Shown: piece after piece, positions 524 through 3,619 of the stretch | How the letters are laid out: each line of letters starts with the position of its first letter | Numbering within the stretch: position 1 is the stretch's first letter | Assembly: GCA_038064855.1 (NCBI GenBank) | Contig: JBBTSE010000010.1 | Span: forward strand, 1-37,353 | Reading direction: 5' to 3' | Source: Patescibacteria group bacterium | Lineage (GTDB): Bacteria; Patescibacteriota; Minisyncoccia; Ryanbacterales; GWA2-47-10b | DNA length: 37,353 bases | Program-made: the position numbers and the translations under genes | Notes under the pieces: model-generated | The model's database searches: none | What the model was told of the DNA's origin: nothing | Seen by the model: only the letters and a program-made list of their open reading frames with translations

Positions 524-610
524 TGGTGCCGCGGGTGGGAGTCGAACCCACACGCCCGTGAGGACACACGATTTTGAGTCGTGCGCGTATGCCAATTCCG
601 CCACCGCGGC
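524..610 (-). tRNA. tRNA-Leu (anticodon CAA)
   Basis: The minus strand folds as a type II tRNA. The acceptor GCCGCGG pairs with CCGCGGC. The anticodon stem is CACGA/TCGTG with loop CTCAAAA, giving anticodon CAA. There is a long variable arm and a GGTTCGACTCC T-arm. The 3' CCA is encoded (524-526). It reads UUG leucine codons. The 5' 36 nt are repeated exactly, but interrupted, at 881-957 on the far side of the GIY-YIG gene. Confidence 0.95.
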
Positions 611-616
611 ATGCAG

Positions 617-856
617 TTACACTATCAATGAATCGAGCAGTTGTCGACCCTTCCCGCTTTTGAGAAATATCTCGCGTTTGCGTGCTTCAGTGTAGTCTTT
701 ATAGTGTTCTGTAAGGACTAGTGTAAATGGAGCGTACCCTTTTGTACTTTTTGTTTTACCACCGTTGTGCTCCGAGATTCTTCGTTGAATATCGCTCGTG
801 ATACCAACATATCTGTATTTATGTTGAGTGCTTTTTATGACATATATAAAAATCAT
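617..856 (-). CDS. Small GIY-YIG domain endonuclease-like protein
   Basis: From the ATG at 856 the product is 79 aa and is almost entirely a GIY-YIG nuclease fold. FIYVIKS forms the first (GIY) strand, YVGITSDIQRRISEH contains the YVG strand and the conserved Arg, and later EARKREIFLKSGKGR contains the Glu-containing helix. A TTG at 877 would add seven residues, but family members usually start at the position chosen here. Single-domain GIY-YIG proteins of this size (UPF0213/YhbQ-like and relatives) are thought to cut DNA, often as repair or homing-type nucleases. It lies 6 bp from tRNA-Leu and is flanked on the other side by a duplicated tRNA 5' half. This makes it look like the cargo of a very small tRNA-targeting element. 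The family call is strong; the mobility role is inferred. Confidence 0.8.
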   Translation of the reverse strand: MIFIYVIKSTQHKYRYVGITSDIQRRISEHNGGKTKSTKGYAPFTLVLTEHYKDYTEARKREIFLKSGKGRQLLDSLIV

Positions 857-893
857 GTTGTTAGGCTGACTTATCAAAGATGAGTCGTGCGCG

Positions 894-912
894 GTCGCCT
901 AAGGCGACTAAA
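894..912 (+). repeat. 19-nt palindrome + TAAA mini-insert (copy 1)
   Basis: GTCGCC-TAA-GGCGAC followed by TAAA interrupts the tRNA-Leu half copy after tRNA base 23. Removing it restores the tRNA sequence perfectly. Confidence 0.75.
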
Positions 913-929
913 TATGCCAATTTTTCCGC

Positions 930-948
930 TTTACCCGCCTCCGGCGGG
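930..948 (-). repeat. 19-nt palindrome + TAAA mini-insert (copy 2, opposite orientation)
   Basis: On the minus strand this is CCCGCC-GGA-GGCGGG followed by TAAA. It has the same format as the insert at 894-912 but the opposite orientation, and sits between tRNA bases 9 and 10. Removing it restores the tRNA sequence exactly. Confidence 0.75.
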
Positions 949-988
949 CACCGCGGCAAATAAGATTCCTCACCATACTAGCATTCCG

Positions 989-1017
989 TTGTCATTTTTC
1001 CAATATTTCTCTATTCT
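989..1017 (+). promoter_or_regulatory. parB promoter, probably giving a leaderless mRNA
   Basis: TTGTCA (989-994) and TATTCT (1012-1017) are 17 bp apart. Only 6 nt separate the -10 box from the parB ATG, so the transcript would begin at or next to the start codon. No Shine-Dalgarno sequence is present. Confidence 0.6.
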
Positions 1018-1023
1018 GGGTGC

Positions 1024-1914
1024 ATGCCTGACGAATTGAAAGAGAAAGAAAGTGTCTTCTGGATCCCGGTAGAAAAGATCAAACCCAACCCATATCAGCC
1101 CCGTACTGAGTTTGATGAGGCGGCACTCAAGGGCCTTGCCGAATCAATTCGCCAGTACGGTATTTTGCAGGCGCTTGTGGTAACGCGCATCGAGCGTGAA
1201 AGTGAGACGGGTACCGAGGTGACCTATGAACTCGTAGCAGGTGAAAGGCGTTTTCGCGCATCGCAAATGATAGGTCTTCGGGAAGTTCCTGTCACTATTC
1301 GTCGTGAAGAGCCAGCAAAGGTTCGCCTCGAGTTAGCGTTGGTAGAAAATGTGCAACGCCAAGATCTCAACGCTATCGAGCGCGCGATTGCCTATAAACG
1401 CTTGATCGATGAGTTTGCAATGACCCAGCCCGAGATCGCAGGGCGCGTAGGTAAGTCACGCGAATCGATCGCCAATACTATTCGTATTTTGATGTTGCCA
1501 CAAGATATGCAGGAAGCGGTACGAGGAGGGAAAATAACTGAAGGTCATACGCGCCCTCTCCTCATGCTCTCAACCCGACCCGAAGAGCAAAAAGAACTTT
1601 TTCTTGATATTCTGGATCACCACATCTCGGTGCGTGAGGCAGAGCGCATCTCGCGCCGTATCGCGCGTGAGCGTGCGCGCAAAGTAGAAGACTTACCAAG
1701 CGCGGAAACTCGTGCGGTAGAAGAACGCCTTGGCAATGTGCTGGGTACGCGCGTTGAGATCCATAAAGAGGCGGGCGGTAAAGGCAAGATCTCCATCGAA
1801 TTTTTCTCAGACGAAGAACTGTACGGTATTACCGCAAAGCTCATGCGCGAACGCGAAGAGCGGCTTGAGAGTGAGCGTATGGCGCAAGCGACCGAAGAGC
1901 AGTTTACGGTGTAA
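1024..1914 (+). CDS. parB: ParB/Spo0J-family chromosome partitioning protein
   Basis: This 296-aa protein is a full-length ParB, the CTP-dependent DNA clamp that loads at parS sites and works with ParA to segregate chromosome origins. The N-terminal domain (about 12-100) begins VEKIKPNPYQPRTEF and holds the CTP-binding box GERRFRA (73-79). ENVQRQDLNAIE (108-119) is the third nucleotide-contact motif. A helix-turn-helix for parS recognition follows at about 132-156 (MTQPEIAGRVGKSRESIA). The C-terminal part (about 240-296) is the dimerisation region. No parA partner is seen in the window. The start is the first ATG, placed 6 nt after a -10 box. The gene converges on rel, and the two reading frames overlap by 11 bp at their stops. 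Confidence 0.95.
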   Translation: MPDELKEKESVFWIPVEKIKPNPYQPRTEFDEAALKGLAESIRQYGILQALVVTRIERESETGTEVTYELVAGERRFRASQMIGLREVPVTIRREEPAKVRLELALVENVQRQDLNAIERAIAYKRLIDEFAMTQPEIAGRVGKSRESIANTIRILMLPQDMQEAVRGGKITEGHTRPLLMLSTRPEEQKELFLDILDHHISVREAERISRRIARERARKVEDLPSAETRAVEERLGNVLGTRVEIHKEAGGKGKISIEFFSDEELYGITAKLMREREERLESERMAQATEEQFTV

Positions 1915-3619
1915 TCTCTATATTTTTAACTCCTTTGATACGGCGCAGGCGCGCTATAAGTTTTTTGGTATCGCATGCTTTGGGTATGATGCACTCAATC
2001 GTCATAATGGGATTTTTTGCGTCCGCGTCCGTTTTCTCCATATTAATTTTTTCTTTCGTGAGCAGGGTGACGATCTCTTTGAGAAGGCCCACACGACTTA
2101 CGCGCGTAATGCGTAGCGTTGAGTGTTTTGGTGCGCGTGCGTTTGAGCGGCGTACCGTGACCGGCTCGATGCCCATGCGTCGCAATGCCGCGCGGATATG
2201 TCCGCGTGCGACCGTCGAGCGCGCGATGGTAAGCCAATCGGAGCTTGGTTTCGCGTTTTTTGCGGTAATGACCTCAGTAGTATCGCCCGACGCGAGTGCG
2301 TAGGTGAAAGGTACCATCTTGCCGTTTACTTTAGCGCCTGTCATCCGGTCACCGATCTCGGAGTGCACATGGTAGGCAAAGTCGATCGGTGTGGCCCCTT
2401 CTGGTAGGTCGATCACCTCGCCGCGTGGGGTGAGTACAAAAATGCGGTCTTTAAAAAAATCTATTTTGAGTGCTTCTACAAAATCTTCATTCGATGCTCC
2501 TTCGGCAAAGTCACGCTGCCACTCTTGTAACTTGCGGATCCATGCGATTTTTTCTTCAGCAACTTTGATGCCCGCGCGCGGTTTGCCGCCTTCTACATAT
2601 GCCCAGTGGGCGGTCACGCCGAACTCAGCTGCTTCGTGCATGGCGCGTGTGCGGATTTGAAATTCGGCTACGATATCATCTTCGCAAAATACCGTGGTGT
2701 GAAGCGACTGGTAACCGTTGGGCTTTGGCATTGAGATATAGTCTTTGATACGGCCTGGCACGGGGCGCCAAGTAGCATGGATGATGCCGAGCGCTTGGTA
2801 GCATTGCTCAACCGTATCGACAATGATACGAAGTGCTACCAAATCTGCGATACGCGAGATGTCGTTGTCATAGCGCTGAAGTTTTTTCCAAAGACTATAG
2901 TAATGTTTCTCGCGAAAGTTTACCGTAGCAGTAGTAACGCCACCCGTACTCAACTCGCGTTCAACGATGGGCGCTACGCGCGAGACATATTCGGTGCGCT
3001 GGGGCAATATTTTTTTTACATCACTAGCAAGTTTTTTCGCCTCGTCAGGATAGATGATAGGAAAGGCCAAATCTTCGAGTTCACCTTTCATCTCACCCAT
3101 GCCAAGGCGATAGGCGAGTGGCGCGTAGATCTCGAGGGTTTCGGCAGAAATACGCTTTTGTTTTTCGGGTGCCAATGCTCCTATCGTATGCATGTTGTGC
3201 AGGCGGTCGGCGAGTTTGATGATAACCACACGAATATCTTGGGCGACAGCCAAAAACATTTTACGCATTGATTCGGCGGCTCTCTCAAATCCGCGGTAGC
3301 GTACGCGATCAAATTTTGTCAAACTTTCTACCAAAAACGCCACTTCAGATCCCAATTCTTGCTCAACTTCTTTTTTAGTCAGCTCCGTATCTTCCAAGAC
3401 ATCGTGCAAGAGGGCCGCGGCAATCGCGGGCGCGTCAAGCTTGAGTGTGATAAGTTTTTCGGCGACAGCAATAGGATGCGTGATATACAGATCACCTGAT
3501 GCGCGCATTTGCCCCGCATGCGAACTTACCGAGAGATCAAATGCTTTTTTAATAAGAGCTTGCTCCGTCGCCGTAAAGCGAGTCAGGGTGCTAGCAAATT
3601 GATCCCATGTTTTATGCAT
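1904..3619 (-). CDS. rel: Bifunctional (p)ppGpp synthetase/hydrolase, compact Rel
   Basis: The 571-aa product makes and breaks the alarmone (p)ppGpp for the stringent response. The N-terminal HD hydrolase shows SSHAGQMRASG and the LLHDVLEDT helix (H72 D73). The synthetase follows with DLVALRIIV, and GRIKDYISMPKPNGYQSLHT carries the RxKD form (290-293) typical of bifunctional Rel enzymes. A TGS domain covers about 391-450 and an ACT domain about 500-571. The usual long enzyme is about 740 aa; here only about 50 residues separate TGS and ACT, so the helical and zinc-finger parts that contact the ribosome appear to be missing. It is the last gene of dprA-topA-rel, starting 3 nt after topA. Family call very sure; loss of ribosome sensing is inferred. 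Confidence 0.95.
   Translation of the reverse strand: MHKTWDQFASTLTRFTATEQALIKKAFDLSVSSHAGQMRASGDLYITHPIAVAEKLITLKLDAPAIAAALLHDVLEDTELTKKEVEQELGSEVAFLVESLTKFDRVRYRGFERAAESMRKMFLAVAQDIRVVIIKLADRLHNMHTIGALAPEKQKRISAETLEIYAPLAYRLGMGEMKGELEDLAFPIIYPDEAKKLASDVKKILPQRTEYVSRVAPIVERELSTGGVTTATVNFREKHYYSLWKKLQRYDNDISRIADLVALRIIVDTVEQCYQALGIIHATWRPVPGRIKDYISMPKPNGYQSLHTTVFCEDDIVAEFQIRTRAMHEAAEFGVTAHWAYVEGGKPRAGIKVAEEKIAWIRKLQEWQRDFAEGASNEDFVEALKIDFFKDRIFVLTPRGEVIDLPEGATPIDFAYHVHSEIGDRMTGAKVNGKMVPFTYALASGDTTEVITAKNAKPSSDWLTIARSTVARGHIRAALRRMGIEPVTVRRSNARAPKHSTLRITRVSRVGLLKEIVTLLTKEKINMEKTDADAKNPIMTIECIIPKACDTKKLIARLRRIKGVKNIEITP

Follow-up and report, generated by a model that had tools for sequence, protein, structure and literature searches.

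Hairpin inserts in displaced tRNA next to a GIY-YIG nuclease gene: a candidate homing-type selfish element in Patescibacteria

Two 19-nt palindromic inserts in a Patescibacteria contig (the window, i.e. the whole stretch of 37,353 nucleotides that was analysed) interrupt a displaced 5' part of a tRNA-Leu gene, which is followed on the minus strand by a GIY-YIG nuclease ORF and then by an intact tRNA-Leu(CAA) (Table 1). The same order, with a hairpin-bearing displaced tRNA part, a GIY-YIG ORF and an intact tRNA of the same isotype, recurs in many families, at many tRNA isotypes and in other classes of the phylum. We propose that the inserts belong to a selfish element of homing type composed of these three units, a reading to which we assign a probability of about 0.4.

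Table 1. Coordinates of the inserts and neighbouring features of the tRNA-Leu locus in the window
Feature	Coordinates	Strand	Description
Insert B, 19 nt	894..912	+	15-nt hairpin GTCGCC-TAA-GGCGAC + TAAA; D-loop/D-stem boundary of the relic, tRNA position 23/24
Insert A, 19 nt	930..948	-	Hairpin CCCGCC-GGA-GGCGGG + TAAA (948-930); between tRNA positions 8-10 and the D-stem
Displaced 5' part of tRNA-Leu(CAA), positions 1-36	881..958	-	Letter-perfect apart from both hairpins and one AAA (TTT on +)
GIY-YIG nuclease ORF	617..856	-	79 aa from ATG; 86 aa from TTG at 877
Intact tRNA-Leu(CAA)	524..611	-	ARAGORN; Rfam RF00005 5.8e-12
Cassette between the two tRNA copies	612..880	-	Missing from the same-genus empty site (G002 C16:6040-6267)

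Both inserts lie, to the base, where the initial annotation had placed them, and its view that they are true insertions and not drift is confirmed by the restoration of an intact tRNA sequence when they are deleted together with TTT. The relic without its two inserts reads TGAGTCGTGCGCGTATGCCAATTTTTCCGCCACCGCGGCA and is identical to positions 575-611 of the plus strand, within the intact tRNA, except for this TTT. Moreover, the comparison of orthologous loci that had been proposed as a check reveals an empty site in a genome of the same genus (G002), where an uninterrupted tRNA-Leu is joined to the matching upstream flank (window 949-1100, 91% identical), leading to parB. The cassette and the inserts are missing there, giving an occupied allele in the genome of the window (G000) and an empty one in G002 at the same site, and the replacement tRNA of the window equals the empty-site tRNA over 85 bases. 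The nuclease ORF matches the GIY-YIG domain (PF01541, E=1.1e-15) and the UPF0213 structure PDB 1zg2 (2.9e-6), and the intact tRNA begins about 6-10 bp past its stop codon. The site and orientation of insert A are the same at three other loci (L062, L063 and L064). The arms of the two inserts had been described as different, which is true of the outer two pairs and of the loop but not of the core CGCC-NNN-GGCG, common to both. Given this shared core and the opposite orientation, the two inserts could pair with each other, TAAA with TTTA; covariation between these tails is not claimed, because only two main types of tail exist and their orientation is fixed.

The recurrence of this architecture was assessed on 110 GIY-YIG loci selected solely by protein similarity to the ORF of the window, to which the neighbouring tRNAs were aligned allowing long inserts (score cut-offs 30 or 34; best shuffled score 22). 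At 60 of the 110 loci, an intact tRNA on the same strand begins no more than 30 bp after the end of the ORF, with 14 isotypes represented, and a displaced tRNA part (score at least 34) is present at 55, with 65 relics in all. An internal hairpin by the strict rule is present in 39 of these relics, and 11 more have one at an edge (shuffled edges 0), while 15 have none by this rule. For comparison, unselected stretches totalling 780 kb contain only 3 relics for 60 tRNAs. The relic, the ORF and the tRNA follow one another in collinear order, separated by short spacers, and outside the hairpins, of which many relics carry 2-4, the relics are nearly unmutated. Some relics lie downstream of the tRNA, and these 3' relics bear hairpins as well. 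In four loci (L260, L330, L331 and L325), the cassette and its intact tRNA lie between direct repeats (42-57 bp) made of an arm and a hairpin pair, indicating that the hairpins may predate the cassette there. Among 286 genomes of the class, CGCCNNNGGCGNNTAAA has clearly more matches than its reversed control, with close opposite pairs in G000, G060, G097, G102, G148 and G039, and each of the loci with such pairs, when read, consists of a tRNA-Leu 5' part with hairpins at equal tRNA positions, a GIY-YIG ORF and an intact tRNA-Leu.

Several individual loci show variants. The genome of the window harbors a second GIY-YIG locus, at tRNA-Tyr (L378, G000:C7:190430-192270), in which the nuclease gene lies between two near-identical relic copies, with the intact tRNA-Tyr and a 3' relic coming next; in the two copies a TCCCGC-TAAA-GCGGGA hairpin stands in place of the anticodon arm. 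A third relic of the same genome (L228, G000:C7:1-20000) corresponds to positions 1-40 of a tRNA-Asn with hairpin-like inserts at positions 26 and 35, and lies directly before the intact tRNA-Asn; no nuclease gene was recognised at this locus. In the T-loop, the downstream tRNA-Lys relics of L260 and L331 have double hairpins of larger size (66-74 nt, TTCCCGATTTGCTCGCGC...). In another genome (G082), L039 is built of units of about 93 bp repeated in tandem, with a 5' half resembling a tRNA and a CGCCNNNGGCG hairpin in the D-loop.

The inserts have set lengths, which cluster at 19, 20 and 30-31 nt: those of 19 nt consist of a 15-nt hairpin and a 4-nt tail, those of 20 nt have the form CCTGCCTG-NNNN-CAGGCAGG, and those of 30-31 nt are mostly two tandem 15-nt hairpins. 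A stem of at least 6 bp with a loop of 3-4 nt is present in 48 of 65 distinct inserts from homologous relics (shuffled 0.85, maximum 4); with the register fixed, six perfect pairs would arise by chance with a probability of about 4^-6 per insert. As initially suggested, it is the format that is kept rather than the exact sequence, since 15-nt hairpins with a 6-bp stem and a 3-nt loop recur class-wide with covarying arms. The TAAA tail shared by both inserts of the window is one variant only, and elsewhere the tail is CAAG, CTTG or absent. When all interior inserts of 14-80 nt are counted, palindromic or not and with relic ends excluded, 40 of 58 lie in one of the D, anticodon or T loops, against 39.7% expected (P 6e-6), and a single one lies in the acceptor, the variable arm, the T-stem or the anticodon 3' strand, where 27% would be expected (P 2e-7). 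In 16 distinct 30-nt hairpin pairs, 97.9% of cells pair and 11 of 12 base pairs display two-sided changes, with a covariation score of 0.63 against 0.156+-0.029 in shuffled and at most 0.077 in slid alignments. Selection acting on structure would fit this covariation, and so would a mutational process that corrects palindromes; the data do not tell them apart. A role of the hairpins as breakers of homology between direct repeats was discarded as a general explanation, since uninterrupted repeats of 34-37 nt persist in Lys and Gln relics. Group I intron remnants were also rejected, Rfam finding tRNA only.

The hairpins are linked to the nuclease. The nuclease tree, although with few resolved forks, clusters by tRNA isotype (24 changes against 42.2 shuffled), with 17 Leu rows requiring one change and with Lys and Cys clusters. 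Hairpin type and position follow the nuclease lineage: the Leu clade of the window (SH-aLRT 97) has mostly 19-nt tailed hairpins and its sister Leu clade the 20-nt CCTGCCTGCCGGCAGGCAGG, while position and number vary among related elements. In the best-resolved sets (Lys, Glu and most Leu), the letters of the relic are closer to its own local tRNA than to the tRNAs of other genomes, and hairpin type and site are nonetheless shared across these relics. It thus appears that the arrival of the nuclease lineage and the placing of hairpins in the local tRNA copy went together.

From the architecture and its recurrence, the lengths, placement and covariation of the hairpins, the local relic letters and the lineage link, all directly observed, we infer the following scheme. 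The nuclease would cut a tRNA gene that is not yet occupied, within one of the tRNA loops, and repair would bring in the nuclease gene and a working tRNA copy. The displaced copy would retain the native leader and target and carry a hairpin at the cut site, so that it could be neither recut nor used as a tRNA. The replacement tRNA would be spared through its new leader, now the 3' end of the nuclease gene; as it equals the empty-site tRNA of G002, immunity cannot reside in the tRNA sequence itself, and protection would have to come from the changed leader. Against this homing-type reading, the 2-4 hairpins of many relics exceed the need of a single cut site, 15 of the 65 relics have no strict hairpin, and similar hairpins occur away from tRNAs. 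The direct repeats of L260, L330, L331 and L325, with hairpins that may be older than the cassette, also count against it. A more specific version would be a natural cleave-and-rescue system, in which the GIY-YIG nuclease disrupts an essential single-copy tRNA gene, the same cassette supplies the functional replacement, a structure-conserved hairpin locks the old copy and each tRNA isotype has its own lineage; we consider this version tentative. If true, it would represent a widespread selfish strategy in Patescibacteria, making small genomes dependent on a nuclease-linked replacement tRNA, and would provide dozens of natural insertions that keep an RNA or DNA shape and not a sequence. It would also explain the puzzling tRNA fragments beside GIY-YIG ORFs, and would make the long-standing question of how tiny hairpins enter RNA genes and persist there testable on defined empty and occupied sites.

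A different possibility, which we regard as somewhat doubtful, is that the hairpins are passive scars of tiny mobile elements, REP-like or double-hairpin-element-like, inserting preferentially into the loops of structured RNA genes. They would pile up in dead tRNA copies because only these tolerate them, and their perfect arms would be kept through palindrome correction rather than selection. Consistent with this, CCTGCCTGCCGGCAGGCAGG is common to Leu, Lys, Asn, Phe and Met relics, and hairpins of the same format are found apart from tRNAs, in other repeats (L079 and L080) and in a 16S rRNA gene, where GTCGCCTTAGGCGACTAAA lies at L077:2539 (G252; Rfam SSU match 2371-3001). Insertions at the tops or bases of stem-loops are also known from CPR rRNA (PMC11270868). 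However, the relics are otherwise so little mutated that insertion would have to greatly outpace substitution, type and position of the hairpins follow the nuclease lineage, and no transposase flanked by them was found in Patescibacteria. Nor does the genome of the window contain a dispersed family, an explanation that was rejected: CGCCNNNGGCG has 33 occurrences where the reversed control has 26, and CCCGCCTCCGGCGGG has one. The genome-wide enrichment expected by the initial annotation is likewise lacking, 400 kb of G000 containing 13 CC-NNN-GG palindromes where shuffled sequence has 4-8, and none of the 13 having a TAAA tail. Its family of minimal hairpin elements stands as a recurrent format beside nuclease genes but not as a family dispersed in its own genome.

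Selection at the RNA level is an unlikely alternative. The nuclease mRNA and the tRNA would be co-transcribed, the displaced 5' half, if left unmodified, would enter into competition for the real 3' half, and the hairpins would have been selected to stop the relic from folding, being processed or being charged. The collinear arrangement with short spacers would suit this, as would the position of the hairpins at the D, anticodon and T arms, their covarying structure and the fold of the window relic into one long non-tRNA hairpin (z = -2.1). On the other hand, a point mutation would do equally well, and downstream 3' relics are hairpin-bearing too. Less probable still, the hairpin-bearing tRNA part could be a functional RNA or DNA element instead of a relic, either a leader of the nuclease mRNA or a branched DNA bound by the nuclease. 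The covariation, the direct repeats flanking the cassette in L260, L330, L331 and L325 and the two relic copies around the nuclease gene of L378 are in line with such a role, whereas the variable position and number of the hairpins between related elements and the presence of some relics downstream of the tRNA argue against it. Chance or assembly error, for which only the draft state of the genome speaks, is ruled out by the same architecture in dozens of independent genomes and by the excess of palindromic inserts over shuffled sequence.

Among known systems, free-standing or intronless homing endonucleases (T4 Seg genes, GIY-YIG family) share with the element a small nuclease gene beside the target gene, a GIY-YIG catalytic domain and empty sites in relatives, as well as lineages specific to one target gene. 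They differ in that the element described here brings along a complete tRNA as replacement and leaves behind a displaced tRNA part with hairpins, and in that cleavage of the target is presumed here. Engineered cleave-and-rescue drives combine a nuclease with a rescue copy of an essential gene whose original copy is disrupted; they are engineered and have no hairpin format, and cleavage in the present case is a prediction.

The very short palindromes, with pairs in opposite orientation, resemble those of REP/RAYT systems (GTAG and CGTC families, PMC3733652), and small size does not set them apart as had been supposed, since published REPs include ones of 20-40 bp, some of them having stems of 5 bp (PMC3733652). 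In contrast to REPs, the hairpins are not high-copy in their own genome and have freely variable arms, and the tails at their foot (TAAA, CAAG, CTTG or none) lack a GTAG or CGTC tag. None of 17 Patescibacteria Y1 loci is flanked by the same palindrome, having other palindromes or none, and mobilisation by a RAYT in Patescibacteria was rejected as these hairpins do not flank Y1 genes. The Y1_Tnp genes at L272, L276, L283 and L295 have their own perfect palindromes, different for each gene. Only in a Planctomycetota MAG (L279) does GTCGCCNNNGGCGACtaaact flank a Y1 transposase gene, so the sequence itself can be REP-like elsewhere. Separately, TTTAGTCGCCNNNGGCGACC, which also flanks a Y1 transposase gene in Planctomycetota (L279), is very abundant in two Planctomycetota MAGs (DBS1-1.bin91 and YP1.bin19) in recurring contexts (L082-L198, mostly JAJYFE and JAKCCC contigs) and probably represents an undescribed REP family.

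Mitochondrial double-hairpin or repetitive hairpin elements (sponge RHE, PMC2800124) are likewise mini hairpins, single or paired, in the loops of RNA genes, where the present inserts also concentrate; those in Patescibacteria are instead linked with displaced copies of tRNAs and with a lineage of bacterial nucleases, with no dispersed mobile copies in G000. The CPR rRNA insertion sequences come from the same bacterial group, include GIY-YIG proteins in some cases and share sites at stem-loop tops or bases, and the text describing them makes no mention of tRNA, hairpins or palindromes (PMC11270868). No description of hairpin-bearing displaced tRNAs beside GIY-YIG genes was found in the open-access literature, and the nuclease-tRNA element with its hairpin scar or lock looks like an undescribed selfish element.
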